Of a stretch of DNA of 64,000 nt, positions 7,802 through 51,403 are shown in pieces. The first letter of the stretch is position 1. Each line of letters begins with the position of its first letter. The stretch is from Candidatus Marinarcus aquaticus. GTDB lineage: Bacteria > Campylobacterota > Campylobacteria > Campylobacterales > Arcobacteraceae. Both the position numbers and the translations under genes were made by a program. Where the stretch lies: NCBI RefSeq assembly GCF_004116335.1, contig NZ_PDKN01000002.1, forward strand, positions 1 to 64,000, in the 5' to 3' direction. The notes under the pieces are model-generated. The model was not told where the DNA came from, ran no database searches, and saw nothing but the letters and a program-made list of their open reading frames with translations.

Positions 7802-9742
7802 ATGAGATATATTCTGGTTCTACTGCTTTTTTTTATTCACTCACTTTATGCAAATGCTGACTCATTAGACTCACTTCTAGAGGAGTATGAAAGCACCTCT
7901 TTAAACTCTTTGCAAACCGTAGATGAAAAGATGGGGCATGTTGTTGTCTATTCTCAAAAAGAGATTCGTCTCATGCAGTATGACACCTTGGATGATATTT
8001 TAAAAGAGTTGCCTCGAAAAAACCTTAATAAAAATCGATTTGGAGTCAACTCTTCAGCTCTTTCTGGTACCAGTGTGAGTGTGAGTGGTTTTTTCCGTTT
8101 TTTTATCAATGACCATGAGATAAGCTCTATTCATACTCAGTCTTCATCAATTACTTGGGGAGATATGCCTTTAGACTTTGTGGATTATATCGAGGTCTAT
8201 TACGGAGACAGTTCCTTTGCATTGGGAAACTCAACGGGAGTCTATTTTATCCGTATTTATACGAAAAATGCTCAAAAAATCAATGGTGGAGAGATTGTTT
8301 ATAAGGTTACAGACAATGGTTCGAATACACAAAGCGTGATGCATTCACAAACGTTGAGTAATGGCTGGTCATATCTCTTTTTTGCAAGCAGAAACAACGT
8401 GAATGATGAGAGTGACTCCAACTATTCTGAAACGATTGATAATGATTCACAACGAGAATATTATTATCTTGATTTAAGCAATGATCGTACCAAAATCAAT
8501 TTGGCCTACAGTCATCTTGACAAAGATGCCTATTTATCGTTATCAAAAGATTTAGACCCTGATGAAGGCACAATCAAAGCTGAAAGTATCTATTTTGATG
8601 TAAGTCACTATTTTTTAGAGGATAAATCTTTAAAGCTGAACCTCTCTTATGACATTAACAATCGTTTTTTTTACCAAAAAAATGACGGTGGTTTATCCAT
8701 TGTGCCTATTCGAAACCCTTATATACCTGTTTATAATATCAGTTCTTACATGGAAGATTTAGAATTAACCAAGAAAAATCTTTATCTTTCAAAATCGACA
8801 CAGTTTGGTGACCATACGCTCTTTACAGCTTTTAACTATACAAACAACAAGTATAAAGTCAAAAACAGAAAATACACTGAGACGTTTATTCCAACAAACA
8901 TAACCACAAATTACTCTGTGGATCACTTTAATGATTTTGAAGAGGAGAGCATTTACTCCTTTTTATTACAAGATGAGTATCGACCTTTTGATGACTTGGT
9001 GTTAATTGGAAACTTGAAGCTTGATCGATATAAACGAAATGATTTTGTGGATGATAGTACGGAGACACTTTATCGTGCAGGATTTATCTATACACCTACA
9101 CAAAACTTTGGTTTAAAAGGATTTTATAATAAAACCTATATTCCACCAAGTTTTTATAATATTGACTTTATCAGTGCCAATGAAGAGGAAATCAAGACTC
9201 AAAAGTATCGATTTTATACGTTAGAAGGAGTTTTCACCACTGAAAATTCAAAAACAAGTTTACAATATAATAACATTCGGATCAATGATTTTGTTTATTT
9301 GACTCCTGTTGGATTTATCAATGTGCCGTATGTGATTCGTACGGAAGGGTTTATTTTTAACTATGAGTATCTTTTTAATAATACCGATAAATTACAGTTT
9401 AACTATTTTGTCACGACATTGAATCGCTCTGCAACCAATGCAGACAGAGGTGGTTTTTTAAAATATATGGCTAAGAAAGGAAACTTTGAGTATTTTGGTT
9501 CGGTAGTATACCGAAACAGTTATGATTATGATGAGATTACTGTACCAAGCAGTTTTGATATGAATGTGGGAGCAACATACTATTTTAGTAATGATATCAG
9601 TTTGGGATTAAAAGTAGAAAATCTTTTAGATAAATCGACACAAACGGTTTATACGGATATGAGTGATACGAATAATCCTGAACAATATGTGTTTAAAGAT
9701 CGTGCTCGAAGCGCTATTTTGACACTGAAGTGGGTGTTTTAA
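7802..9742 (+). CDS. TonB-dependent-receptor-like outer membrane protein
   Basis: A 646-residue protein with a signal peptide (cleavage near residue 17, LYA-NAD). Residues about 40-165 resemble a TonB-dependent receptor plug: VVVYSQKEIRLMQYDTLDDI, then VDYIEVYYGDSSFALGNSTG. The rest has the alternating polar/aromatic pattern of a beta-barrel and ends in a phenylalanine (LKWVF), as outer membrane proteins do. Haem or siderophore residues are not recognisable. It is first of three overlapping genes with a periplasmic protein and a GGDEF-EAL enzyme, which suggests that substrate or signal detection at the outer membrane is linked to c-di-GMP. The family call is good; the ligand is unknown. Confidence 0.85.
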   Translation: MRYILVLLLFFIHSLYANADSLDSLLEEYESTSLNSLQTVDEKMGHVVVYSQKEIRLMQYDTLDDILKELPRKNLNKNRFGVNSSALSGTSVSVSGFFRFFINDHEISSIHTQSSSITWGDMPLDFVDYIEVYYGDSSFALGNSTGVYFIRIYTKNAQKINGGEIVYKVTDNGSNTQSVMHSQTLSNGWSYLFFASRNNVNDESDSNYSETIDNDSQREYYYLDLSNDRTKINLAYSHLDKDAYLSLSKDLDPDEGTIKAESIYFDVSHYFLEDKSLKLNLSYDINNRFFYQKNDGGLSIVPIRNPYIPVYNISSYMEDLELTKKNLYLSKSTQFGDHTLFTAFNYTNNKYKVKNRKYTETFIPTNITTNYSVDHFNDFEEESIYSFLLQDEYRPFDDLVLIGNLKLDRYKRNDFVDDSTETLYRAGFIYTPTQNFGLKGFYNKTYIPPSFYNIDFISANEEEIKTQKYRFYTLEGVFTTENSKTSLQYNNIRINDFVYLTPVGFINVPYVIRTEGFIFNYEYLFNNTDKLQFNYFVTTLNRSATNADRGGFLKYMAKKGNFEYFGSVVYRNSYDYDEITVPSSFDMNVGATYYFSNDISLGLKVENLLDKSTQTVYTDMSDTNNPEQYVFKDRARSAILTLKWVF

Positions 9743-10197
9743 TGAAAAAGTTATTACTTCTACTGAGCCTTACTTCAGTATTGTTGGCTAAACAATACAC
9801 CTTTTTAGTGGATGATTATGATAAAGAGCTTGAACTGGAAGCCAAAATTATTTTTAACATTGCCACATCATCAAGTCAAAAACCTGTGCGGTTGTTTATT
9901 CCCAATATGTCAGTTGCCGAAGAGAAATCATTTTCACGATATTTTACAATTTCTAAAGATTGTGAAAATGCCAATTTTGTGTATGTGAAAAAAAGTGTGG
10001 AAATTGATCATAAGTGTTATAATAAAAAACGACTCTTTTTTACCAATAATTATGAAAAACTGCTTTCTGACACTAAGTTTTATGGGGCATTTTTTTGGAA
10101 TAAAAGCCGACCCAATATTGTGTTTATTAAAAACAGACTGACTAAAGACAATATTCAACTTCCCAATACGTATCAAAAATACGTTGAGGATTTTTGA
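9742..10197 (+). CDS. Unknown small periplasmic protein
   Basis: A 151-residue protein with a clear signal peptide (MKKLLLLLSLTSVLLA, cleavage before KQYTF). I do not recognise the family. The mature part is about 135 residues with two cysteines (in KDCEN and HKCYN) that could form a disulfide. Its ATG overlaps the receptor stop codon (TAATG), and its own stop overlaps the next start (TGATG), so all three genes are translationally coupled. A reasonable inference is a periplasmic go-between for the outer membrane receptor and the Cache sensor of the GGDEF-EAL protein. The start at 9742 is preferred to a GTG at 9730, which would put residues ahead of the signal peptide. Confidence 0.75.
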   Translation: MKKLLLLLSLTSVLLAKQYTFLVDDYDKELELEAKIIFNIATSSSQKPVRLFIPNMSVAEEKSFSRYFTISKDCENANFVYVKKSVEIDHKCYNKKRLFFTNNYEKLLSDTKFYGAFFWNKSRPNIVFIKNRLTKDNIQLPNTYQKYVEDF

Positions 10198-12095
10198 TGA
10201 AGACGAGGTTTTTTATTAAAAATCCTATCTATCTTATTCTTCTGACGCTCTCAATTGCAACCATTCTGATTTTATTGCTTTTTGGTACTTTTAAGCTTGA
10301 AGACAAAATTGAAGATAAGATGTTTGAAATTTCAACTTTGGATGTTATTTCAATCACTCAAAACAGTGCAAACAACATTGAAAACCTTCTTAATCCAGAA
10401 AAAGATTACATCTCTCAAATTCAAAAAGATATGCCATTGCGACACCATATTGAAAAAAACCTTGAATTGTTACTGACTAAAAATATCAAATATGCGTATG
10501 TGATTTATCGAGATAAAAAAGGAACATTTCGTTTTTTAGCAGATGGGTCAGACCCTTCTGATAAAGCATTTGTCAATCAAAAACTGGATGTCTTTAGTCC
10601 TAAGTGGAATGAAATTTATGAAATTAAAGAGCCTTTGATGATTCGACACACATTTTTACAAGAGTTATCGATGAGTTATTTGGTTCCTATTTCACAAAAT
10701 GGCCAAGTAGAGTTGATTCTTGTGATTGATTTTTCGATTAAAAAAATTGAGAATATCAACCAAATCATTGAATGGATGAAAAATGCTATTTTGAGTATCA
10801 TTGTTATTATTGCTATCTTTTTACTGGTATTGATTATTCAAACCATCAAATACACGGCGGTTAAAAAAACAGCGTATATTGATAAACTCACCAATGTATA
10901 TAACCGTAATTACTTGCATGAACTTCAAGAGTTTGTTAATTTGAATGATTATATTTTAGCTGCGATTGATATTGACCACTTTAAAAAAGTCAATGATACA
11001 TATGGGCATGAAGTAGGAGATAAAGTACTCAAACAAGTTGCTAATACCATACTTTTGAATATTCGTACGAAAGATGATATTGTCATACGTTATGGTGGGG
11101 AAGAGTTTTTACTTCTTATTCGAACAACAAGAGACGATCATTTAAGTGCTTTGAATGTTTTAGAAAGAATTTTTAAGAATATTCAAGAGAACCATTTTCA
11201 TGTGACCAAAAAAGAGTATATTGAAGTGACTATCTCTGTTGGAGTGAACTTGGTACCAGAAAAATCACGTACGTTCTCAGATGCTTTTAAACTGGCTGAT
11301 ATTGCTCTGTATAACGCAAAAAATAAAGGTCGAAATAACATTGAGGTTTACGATGAACAAGGGAATGGAAATGGTTTAACACTTTCTATTAATGAGATAA
11401 AAGATGCGATGGAAGAGCAACGAGTCATATGTCATTATCAAGCCATTGTGGATGCCAAAACACAAGAGATTTCTCACTATGAGGCACTCTTAAGAGTGCG
11501 GGATAAAGAGGGAAATATTTTAATGCCGTATCAAATATTGCCTGTTATTAAAGGAACGTTTATTCTACGTAATATCACTAAGACCGTACTTAAAATTTGT
11601 CGTAAGAAGCTTTTAGAACGTCCTGATATCAGTGTTAATGTCAATTTAAATCCTCAAGATATTATCAATGAATCCATTCTTAAAATGCTTATAGAGTATG
11701 CCCGTGAAGATCAATTAGGAAGTCGATTGGGCATTGAGATTGTGGAGAGTGAAGATATAATAAATTGTCCAGATGCTAAAGAGAACCTTTTGATGCTTAA
11801 AAATTTGGGTTATAAAATTTTTATTGATGATTTTGGAAGTGGGTATTCTAACTTCATTTACCTCACACAAATTAAAACCGATTACATCAAAATTGATGGA
11901 GAAATTATAAAAAATATTTTAACGGACAGAGTCTCTTATTTATTGGTTAAAAACATTGTGGAGTTTTCAAAAGAGGCCAATATTAAGGTCATTGCAGAGT
12001 ATGTCAGTAATGAAGAGATTTTCTCTGAAATTCAAATGTTAGGCGTGGATTATGCGCAAGGATACTATTTCAGTAAACCAGCTGATTTAGTGTAG
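10197..12095 (+). CDS. Membrane GGDEF-EAL protein (c-di-GMP turnover)
   Basis: A 632-residue inner-membrane signalling enzyme: helix near residues 12-30, periplasmic sensor about 31-195, second helix about 196-218, GGDEF domain about 225-380 and EAL domain about 390-630. GGEEF at about 300-304 is a competent diguanylate cyclase signature. The EAL domain keeps EAL (429-431), the IDDFGSGYSN metal-site motif, YIKIDG and QGYYFSKP, so phosphodiesterase activity is also plausible. No RxxD inhibitory site was identified with confidence. It overlaps the preceding periplasmic gene (TGATG). Which activity dominates, and whether the sensor responds to the periplasmic partner, is open. Confidence 0.93.
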   Translation: MKTRFFIKNPIYLILLTLSIATILILLLFGTFKLEDKIEDKMFEISTLDVISITQNSANNIENLLNPEKDYISQIQKDMPLRHHIEKNLELLLTKNIKYAYVIYRDKKGTFRFLADGSDPSDKAFVNQKLDVFSPKWNEIYEIKEPLMIRHTFLQELSMSYLVPISQNGQVELILVIDFSIKKIENINQIIEWMKNAILSIIVIIAIFLLVLIIQTIKYTAVKKTAYIDKLTNVYNRNYLHELQEFVNLNDYILAAIDIDHFKKVNDTYGHEVGDKVLKQVANTILLNIRTKDDIVIRYGGEEFLLLIRTTRDDHLSALNVLERIFKNIQENHFHVTKKEYIEVTISVGVNLVPEKSRTFSDAFKLADIALYNAKNKGRNNIEVYDEQGNGNGLTLSINEIKDAMEEQRVICHYQAIVDAKTQEISHYEALLRVRDKEGNILMPYQILPVIKGTFILRNITKTVLKICRKKLLERPDISVNVNLNPQDIINESILKMLIEYAREDQLGSRLGIEIVESEDIINCPDAKENLLMLKNLGYKIFIDDFGSGYSNFIYLTQIKTDYIKIDGEIIKNILTDRVSYLLVKNIVEFSKEANIKVIAEYVSNEEIFSEIQMLGVDYAQGYYFSKPADLV

Positions 12096-12188: not shown

Positions 12189-12225
12189 ATTTCAAAAATT
12201 TAAATGATTATATAGGATGAACAGA

Positions 12226-13029
12226 ATGAAAAACAGCAAAATGATGCTGACAATAAAAGAGATACGAGATGCCAGTTGGTTTTCAAATCTTACCACAGCT
12301 ATTATTATTTTATACGCTTCAGTATTGGGGTTTAAAACGCTTGATGAAGCCGCTCAGCCATATGGCAATATTCTTTATATCTTTGACTGGGTGATTACTA
12401 TTTATTTTGTCATAGAAATTGCCATTAAGATGATTGCAGAAGAGCGTTTACGAGATTTTTTTAAAAATGGGTGGAATAATTTTGACTTTATCATTGTGGC
12501 CATTACATTAGTGCCTTTAGAAAACAGCTCTTTTGCAGCCATTGCACGGCTTATGAGGGTCTTTAGAATCTTACGACTTTTTACTGCTCGACCAGAGTTG
12601 AAACGTATCATTGATATGCTTATAAAAGCAGTACCTTCGATTATTGATATTGTGATACTCATGTTTATCATCTTCTATATCTATGCAATTATTGGGAGTT
12701 TTGTATTCCAAGATTTACCTTCAGGGTTATGGAGTAACTTCTTAACAGCGATGTTGACTCTTTTTAGAATTTTAACCTTTGAAGATTGGACCGATGTGAT
12801 GTATGAAGCCATGGAGGTCTACCCTTGGGCGTGGGCATACTTTGTCAGTTTTGTTATCATTGCTGCGTTTGTTTTCTTTAATTTGTTTGTGGCTGTTATT
12901 ATTGGCGAGATGCAAAAATTGCAAGAAGAAGATATGAAGCAAGAGATTCATGAAGAACATGAAAAAATTGACCAACTTTTAAAAGAGGTTCAAGAGTTAA
13001 AGGCACTGATAAAAGAGCGTGAAAAGTGA
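12226..13029 (+). CDS. One-domain voltage-gated cation channel, NavAb-like, with calcium-type filter
   Basis: A 267-residue six-helix channel subunit of the bacterial voltage-gated sodium channel family (NaChBac/NavAb). The S4 voltage sensor has four arginines at three-residue spacing: R108, R111, R114, R117. The pore filter is TFEDWTD at residues 184-190, where NavAb has TLESWSM; the extra acidic residues at the S178 and M181 positions resemble the engineered calcium-selective forms of this family. S6 keeps the conserved asparagine in FFNLFVAVII (N219). Residues about 229-267 form the coiled-coil tail that tetramerises these channels. The start is ATG 12226, 8 bases after AGGA. The last codons overlap the exonuclease gene. 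Confidence 0.95.
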   Translation: MKNSKMMLTIKEIRDASWFSNLTTAIIILYASVLGFKTLDEAAQPYGNILYIFDWVITIYFVIEIAIKMIAEERLRDFFKNGWNNFDFIIVAITLVPLENSSFAAIARLMRVFRILRLFTARPELKRIIDMLIKAVPSIIDIVILMFIIFYIYAIIGSFVFQDLPSGLWSNFLTAMLTLFRILTFEDWTDVMYEAMEVYPWAWAYFVSFVIIAAFVFFNLFVAVIIGEMQKLQEEDMKQEIHEEHEKIDQLLKEVQELKALIKEREK

Positions 13030-13550
13030 TTATACTGGACTTTGAAACCAACACTCAAAATGAGCGTGATGTCATTGAAGTAGCGGCTGTTAAAGTAAGT
13101 TATGAAAAGAGTGAGTGGAAAGTTTTAGATAAGTTTCATCGATACTATTTTTCCCGTTATCCTGTCAATCCATACTCCTATGAGGTGCATAAGTTATCCC
13201 CTGAGTTGATTTCGGATATACGAGATGGTGTAGAGTATGCTCGTTATTTCAATGAAGATGAGGAGTTTATTGAGTTTTGTGCAGGTGCAAGTACGCTTGT
13301 GGCACACAACATCAGTTTTGAGTTACGTCATCTACGAAATATCATCTACTTTGAAAACCATATCTGTACCATGAAAGAGAACAAACCAAAGGTCAAAGCA
13401 CTGAATCGTCAAGGCAGAATAAAAAATCCCACACTGGATGAAGTGTGTCTGTATTATGGTATTGAGTTTGATAAAAGCAAACACCACAGTGCCACTTATG
13501 ATGTGACCAAAACCTTTCAAATATTAAAAAAGATGCAAGGGGTTGTATGA
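13026..13550 (+). CDS. DEDDh 3'-5' exonuclease (DnaQ/RNase T fold)
   Basis: A 174-residue exonuclease domain protein. It has the four-acid DEDDh motif: LDFETN with D5 and E7, then VAHNISFEL, and HHSATYDV with the general-base histidine and final aspartate. Such enzymes trim DNA or RNA 3' ends with two metal ions. The GTG start at 13026 overlaps the channel stop in GTGA, and its own stop overlaps the next start in ATGA, so the three products are translationally coupled. A proofreading role is unlikely, since the true epsilon subunit usually carries a polymerase-binding tail absent here. The substrate is unknown. Confidence 0.88.
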   Translation: MIILDFETNTQNERDVIEVAAVKVSYEKSEWKVLDKFHRYYFSRYPVNPYSYEVHKLSPELISDIRDGVEYARYFNEDEEFIEFCAGASTLVAHNISFELRHLRNIIYFENHICTMKENKPKVKALNRQGRIKNPTLDEVCLYYGIEFDKSKHHSATYDVTKTFQILKKMQGVV

Positions 13551-50481: not shown

Positions 50482-50502
50482 TCTGTTACAGACTGTTTTG
50501 AA
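50472..50502. terminator. Bidirectional terminator, loop is the exchanger stop codon
   Basis: TTCAAAATAGTCTG (50472-50485) and CAGACTGTTTTGAA (50489-50502) pair with one mismatch. The loop TTA (50486-50488) is the stop codon of the minus-strand exchanger gene, and the left arm includes the perR stop. Confidence 0.65.
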
Positions 50503-51403
50503 TCACCAAACCAAGAACTACGAGTAACGCAATCCCTGCACTTTTATTATAAAGTTTATTTGCTGCTATAAAGACCAACATCAGTGATACTATAAACGCC
50601 GCACTGATATCAAAAAAGTTTCCTGATAGATTTACATTAAGTGGGTTAACAATTGAACTTAATCCCAATACCATGGTAAAGTTTGCTACGTTTGATCCAA
50701 TGATATTTCCAATGGCTAAATCAGCATTGTTTTTAATGGCCGATTGAATAGATATCATTAATTCGGGCAGACTTGTACCAAAGGCAACTAAAAACAGACC
50801 AATCACCCACTCACTGATACCAAACGTTCGAGCAATGTTTGAAGCACTCTCCACAGCAAAATCGGCTCCTCCAATAGTAAGCACAAAACCAATCAATAAA
50901 AAGAGGATTGTTTTTAACCAGTTGAATTTTTCATTGGCCAAATCTTCATCGACTTCTTCAACTTGATTGCTTTGAATGAGAAAGATAAGATAAGCGCCCA
51001 TAAGAATAAGAAATAAAACACCATCAACTAAGTTGAGCTTTCCATCAATGGCCATTAAAATAAAAACGAGAATAGGGAACAATGCCCATGCGGAATCTTT
51101 TGCAAAAATATCTCGTTTGGGTGTAATGTTTTTAGCAATTAAAAAAACCAATCCCAATACCAATGAGATATTAAAAATGGTACTTCCAATCACGTTTGCT
51201 ACAGCAATATCTCCGCTTCCTTTGAGTGAAGCTGACATTGATACTGCCATTTCAGGTAAGCTTGTTCCCACTGCAACCAAAGTAGCACCAATTACAAAGT
51301 GAGAGATGTTGTAGTGAAGTGCAATACGTTCACTCTCTTTAATAATAAAATCTGCACCATAAATCAGTGCAGTCATAGCGACTATAAAAATAATAAAATC
51401 CAT
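50486..51403 (-). CDS. Calcium/sodium antiporter (CaCA family, YrbG-like)
   Basis: A 305-residue membrane exchanger with about ten helices. The two alpha repeats are VAVGTSLPEMAVSMSASL and VAFGTSLPELMISIQSAI, with downstream NVIGSTIFNIS and NIIGSNVANFT, the ion-binding signature of the cation/calcium exchanger superfamily. It would use the sodium or proton gradient to export calcium. It overlaps ybeY by one base. A calcium exporter in the same genome region as a channel with a calcium-type filter is noteworthy, though they are 37 kb apart. Confidence 0.93.
   Translation of the reverse strand: MDFIIFIVAMTALIYGADFIIKESERIALHYNISHFVIGATLVAVGTSLPEMAVSMSASLKGSGDIAVANVIGSTIFNISLVLGLVFLIAKNITPKRDIFAKDSAWALFPILVFILMAIDGKLNLVDGVLFLILMGAYLIFLIQSNQVEEVDEDLANEKFNWLKTILFLLIGFVLTIGGADFAVESASNIARTFGISEWVIGLFLVAFGTSLPELMISIQSAIKNNADLAIGNIIGSNVANFTMVLGLSSIVNPLNVNLSGNFFDISAAFIVSLMLVFIAANKLYNKSAGIALLVVLGLVIQNSL

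Follow-up and report, generated by a model that had tools for sequence, protein, structure and literature searches.

A conserved voltage-gated channel with an acidic TFEDWTD selectivity filter in Candidatus Marinarcus aquaticus and other Arcobacteraceae

The window analyzed here, a 64,000-nucleotide stretch of the Candidatus Marinarcus aquaticus genome, encodes a real and conserved bacterial voltage-gated ion channel with three acidic rings in its pore. Channels of this kind are already known, and the protein is a new member. With moderate confidence, we propose that it forms a homotetrameric, depolarization-activated BacNav channel that passes both Na+ and Ca2+, and whose Na+ current is blocked by Ca2+. 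The relevant features of the window are as follows.

12217–13029, + strand: coding sequence of a single-domain, six-helix voltage-gated cation channel of 270 aa (ORF, Pfam Ion_trans, AlphaFold2 model, structure matches)
12274–12588, + strand: voltage-sensor domain S1–S4, residues 20–124, with counter-charges D57 and E67 in S2 and D90 in S3 (model helices, orthologue comparison)
12535–12588, + strand: S4 helix, carrying the gating arginines R111, R114, R117 and R120 (sequence, orthologues, model)
12775–12795, + strand: selectivity filter T187-F188-E189-D190-W191-T192-D193 (sequence, orthologues)
12787–12819, + strand: P2 helix after the filter, residues 191–201 (spacing comparison across channels)
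12829–13023, + strand: S6 helix continuing into a C-terminal helix, a probable coiled coil (sequence, model)
13026–13550, + strand: DnaQ-type 3'-5' exonuclease (PF00929), whose start codon overlaps the channel stop codon (ORF, Pfam, neighbor comparison)
50486–51403, − strand: Na_Ca_ex family exchanger, 37 kb from the channel gene and unlinked to it

Channel protein and genomic neighborhood

The 270-aa product matches Pfam Ion_trans with an E value of 1.3e-46; position 12226, taken as the start in the original prediction, is a second, in-frame ATG within the same ORF. An AlphaFold2 monomer model based on a 55-row alignment reached a pLDDT of 92 and replaced a model from 11 close rows only (pLDDT 65). 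Its best matches among solved structures were NavAb, CavAb and NaChBac, while a search of viral folds returned no match. The protein combines the six helices, S4 arginines, counter-charges and S6 asparagine of voltage-gated Ion_trans channels. Among 28 orthologues, R111, R114 and R120 are invariant and R117 is arginine in 27 and lysine in one; all four arginines match those of NaChBac. The counter-charges D57, E67 and D90 are kept in 28/28 orthologues and in NaChBac. In the S6 alignment, N222 corresponds to NaChBac N225, and A217 and A226 occupy the positions of T220 and G229. Since Ala mutants of NaChBac at T220 and G229 inactivate slowly (PMC7041947), slow inactivation is predicted for the natural channel. 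The only other Ion_trans protein of the genome, read from its sequence, is a K+ channel with a TVGYGD motif and a C-terminal nucleotide-binding region, which leaves the window channel as the sole BacNav-type channel.

Outside the window, the channel and exonuclease genes are adjacent in just one genome, the second of the genus, and exonuclease and S24 peptidase genes follow the channel gene in this genus only. In most Arcobacteraceae, genes read from their sequences as purine permease, PRTase or DUF423-like lie upstream and upp/uraA downstream. A conserved operon partner was rejected because the neighbors differ among lineages. A module of TonB-receptor-like, 155-aa and GGDEF-EAL genes (7802–12095) adjoins the channel gene in the two genomes of the genus; near the channel it also occurs, in reversed orientation, at loci L055, L069 and L162. 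The CaCA-type exporter, put forward in the original prediction as supporting context, is indeed encoded in the window; its distance from the channel gene and the presence of its near-universal family in 11/14 control genomes led us to reject functional coupling.

Conservation of the filter and placement of the channel

Protein searches revealed homologues in half of 60 relatives, falling into two sharply distinct groups. Members of the first are 56–85% identical to the window channel, and every one that was read carries TFEDWTD; members of the second are 30–39% identical and have TLESWSM filters, except for a few divergent channels. Among 101 genomes of the family, 51 contain the TFEDWTD type, 39 the NavAb type, and 23 both. 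The filter, predicted to be TFEDWTD with the key Glu kept, was confirmed at 12775–12795 and is invariant in 51/51 family orthologues; a degenerate DNA pattern for it matched in 51 of the 101 genomes, at the same 51 loci as the protein search. It was likewise present in all 29 unbiased Campylobacterota orthologues read, i.e., 27 with tallied filter codons plus L035 and L036, which were checked separately, and it shows no variation in the TFEDWTD clade within Campylobacterota. Conservation claims are based on the protein searches and the subsequent pattern check; the named loci L051–L130 were found mainly via the pattern, so that their filter counts are biased. In the 27 tallied orthologues, codons vary at 5/7 filter positions, Trp having a single codon and D7 always being GAT. 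Such synonymous variation indicates that the residues are held by selection rather than reflecting recent copying.

Each subunit contributes three acidic filter residues, which would amount to 12 in a tetramer. Numbering onward from the key Glu places D190 and D193 at NavAb S178 and M181, as originally proposed; however, alignment programs set D193 against NavAb G182, the post-filter stretch being one residue shorter than that of NavAb. P2 is one residue shorter than in the TLESWSM channels and NaChBac, lacks their Arg-Pro pair and has an extra Glu. The spacing from filter to S6 is 20 in 136/136 TFEDWTD and 5/5 TLEDWTD channels but 21 in 48/48 TLESWSM channels and NaChBac, and the Arg-Pro pair, found in the same 48/48 and NaChBac, is absent from acidic-filter channels. 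The net charge of the filter-to-S6 segment is −4.6, compared with −1.0 in TLESWSM channels. The post-filter spacing of the window channel allows a gap-free alignment to domains I and II of Cav3.

A tree of 87 channels, calculated without the filter columns, connects the TFEDWTD channels of Campylobacterota first to marine gammaproteobacterial TFEDWTD channels (100/98), then to TLEDWTD channels (98/92) and then to NaChBac (99/99), the deepest joins being less certain due to the long branches of NaChBac and L241. TLESWSM channels of the same Campylobacterota fall outside this acidic-filter clade, and forcing both types into a joint clade costs 88 log units and is rejected (p-AU 4.7e-5). The test rules out derivation from NavAb and corrects the description of the channel as “NavAb-like”, as do the identity of 31–39% to the NavAb-type channels that these bacteria carry and the missing TLESWSM filter, P2 Arg-Pro and 21-residue spacing. 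TFEDWTD clade members come from salt-requiring or marine groups, e.g., Halomonas, Idiomarina, Marinomonas and Alteromonas. The TFEDWTD channels of Halomonadaceae group with the window clade, and TLEGW-type channels are placed elsewhere. In one short locus of Aliagarivorans taiwanensis (L121), two TFEDWTD channels were observed.

The published AnclNav (ancestor-like BacNav) group stands apart from NavAb-like channels, nearest to a Bacillus group (PMC7041947). The window channel has a TLESW-like filter with added acidic residues and branches apart from NavAb-like channels even in lineages holding both, and is therefore likely an AnclNav; its placement beside NavPp, which AnclNav groups with CavMr and the proteins of H. 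elongata and T. turnerae, is indirect. The solved structures searched contained no close AnclNav, and a plasmid search for NavPp and CavMr returned other groups. Asp190 at filter position 4 sets the channel apart from CavMr-type Cav channels, which have Gly.

Independent replacements of the acidic residues have occurred several times across the wider clade, with one return to the longer post-filter loop. At position 4, Asp was gained or lost at least five times in a 122-row tree, counting NaChBac and the long-branched L241. TFESWAT and TFESWTS channels are nested inside TFEDWTD groups, and TFESWAT channels have regained the 21-residue spacing with one extra post-filter residue, like NaChBac. 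Within the TFEDWTD clade, both aspartates have been lost from L200, L202, L206 and L226, and from L239 and L268 (TFESWAT, TFESWTS).

Two further channel groups were encountered. Head-to-tail pairs of single-domain channel genes occur in Pseudomonadota at L253 (G614), L256 (G526) and L262 (G463), and also at G502:C22:12982-14610. Gly4, also present in CavMr and in domains I/III of animal Cav channels, is found in the filters of all three pairs read, one gene of each pair having TTEGWP[TS] and the other T[MS]EGWPD; such pairs might assemble into a heteromeric Ca2+ channel in bacteria. Other Campylobacterota families contain a third, divergent group (~30% identical; L134 and L137 with TLEGWSE, L138 and L139 with TFESWSE, as well as L140 and L141), whose filters are TLEGWSE, TFESWSE, TGDSWSE and TGESWSG, the Gly4 ones being CavMr-like.

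Predicted permeation

In the model proposed above, the protein would act as an ancestor-like BacNav that belongs, within the tree of bacterial channels, to the NaChBac side. Upon depolarization, S4 would open the pore of the homotetramer; the 12 acidic side chains round the filter mouth would bind divalent ions, Na+ and Ca2+ would both pass, and millimolar external Ca2+ would slow or block the Na+ current in a NavPp-like manner. The nearest measured filter, the native TLEDWTD of the Plesiocystis pacifica AnclNav NavPp, prefers Na+ (PCa/PNa 0.308) and is Ca2+-blocked; the reversal potential follows Na+, though some Ca2+ passes (PMC7041947). The window channel thus appears more likely to be a mixed Na+/Ca2+ channel than a proven calcium channel. 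The change at position 2 is not expected to shift its class by itself, since the corresponding NavAb L176F replacement alone created no Ca2+ block (PMC10349818). Transferred to CavMr, the filter TLEDWTD gave a poorly selective channel with PCa/PNa of 13.8 (PMC7041947), indicating that the filter by itself is not decisive; this backbone-dependent disagreement is another reason to prefer mixed permeability with Ca2+ block. The TLEDWTD sister group, the complete S4 and counter-charges and the marine or salt-requiring hosts also support it. Counting against it, the H. elongata AnclNav yielded no current in Sf9 cells (PMC7041947), conduction within the clade is so far inferred only, and acidic filters engineered into NavAb and NaChBac backbones are Ca2+-selective, NaChBac being the nearest solved one-domain sequence. 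Named Halomonas members among our loci carry TFEDWTD.

Those engineered channels form the basis of a second, more tentative reading, namely a native, highly Ca2+-selective channel whose EDWTD rings act as in CavAb and CaChBac and admit Ca2+ on depolarization for signaling. The three acidic residues per subunit, the gain of Ca2+ selectivity by NaChBac upon acidic substitution, the missing Arg-Pro in P2, the more negative filter-to-S6 segment, and the gap-free alignment to Cav3 are all consistent with it. However, NavPp is Na+-preferring and Ca2+-blocked, and gained no Ca2+ permeability with the CavAb-type filter TLEDWSD or with TLEDWAD; in CavMr and NavPp backbones, high Ca2+ selectivity is conferred by Gly rather than Asp at position 4, as in NavPp-D4G (PMC7041947). 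PCa/PNa was 7.7 for CavMr-G4D and 1.7 for NavPp-T6V (PMC7041947). Engineered NavAb is a weak guide to a channel of a separate clade, and CavAb, which as a NavAb mutant presumably keeps the longer loop, is a poor structural stand-in. The original proposal of a native calcium or mixed channel hence stays plausible, but its derivation from CavAb is contradicted by NavPp. Rather unlikely, and slightly more so than the reading on which it builds, is a scenario in which a native, strongly Ca2+-selective Asp4 channel with a mechanism unlike that of CavMr Gly4 is retained by about half of the Arcobacteraceae genomes sampled, and in about a quarter of the genomes works beside a NavAb-type Na+ channel of the same cell as a natural bacterial Nav/Cav pair.

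A plain Na+ channel, in which the acidic residues adjust how the pore responds to divalent ions in seawater and permeation is essentially of Na+, is improbable. It would agree with the Na+-tracking reversal of NavPp and with the gammaproteobacterial TFESWAT and TFESWTS members, which demonstrate that near-Na+-type filters exist in this scaffold, but NavPp does pass some Ca2+, and the acidic filter is invariant although 23 of the genomes also hold a TLESWSM channel, which argues against redundancy. A recent mutation, an assembly artefact or a decaying gene can practically be dismissed, as the frame is open, all 51 orthologues share the filter with varying codons and the S2, S3, S4 and S6 landmarks are invariant; nothing in favor of such an origin was found, and sequencing error or absence of the filter from close relatives, conceived as refutations of the original prediction, are excluded.

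One family thus keeps a native acidic-filter channel beside the NavAb type, and related lineages repeatedly lost the acidic residues, which makes the matter testable: the channel allows a direct test of filter charge versus scaffold in setting Na+/Ca2+ selectivity, with the TFESWAT and TFESWTS relatives as natural mutants for comparison. NavAb, the parent of engineered CavAb, has relatives whose cells also hold a native acidic-filter channel. Should it prove permeable to Ca2+, the channel would point to voltage-driven entry of Ca2+ among marine bacteria of a common group. A role proposed for such channels in alkaliphilic Bacillus is to supply Na+ for motility and pH homeostasis (PMC4225499), which we regard as a lead only.

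Comparison with known channels

NavPp, from a marine myxobacterium, and the window channel are both single-domain voltage-gated channels of marine hosts, and Leu to Phe at position 2 is their sole filter difference; this likeness is judged from the NavPp filter. NaChBac of Bacillus halodurans (PDB 6vwx), on the sister branch to the acidic-filter clade, had the top target TM-score among the listed matches (0.81) and shares the S2, S3 and S4 charges. It differs in its TLESWAS filter, the post-filter stretch longer by one residue, the P2 Arg-Pro pair, and T220 and G229 in place of Ala/Ala. NavAb and CavAb (PDB 3rvy, 5klb) have the same fold as the window channel, which is acidic at the counted S178D and M181D positions, and a NavAb-type paralogue shares the genome with a TFEDWTD channel in 23/101 family genomes; yet the window channel keeps Glu where CavAb has Asp, and has the shorter post-filter stretch and the low identity to the NavAb type described above. 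CavMr, the native Ca2+ channel of Meiothermus ruber, is also a one-domain protein and has Glu3 and Asp7 in common with the window filter, but its Gly4 and Val6, which are required for Ca2+ selectivity (PMC7041947), are replaced by Asp4 and Thr6 in the window channel.
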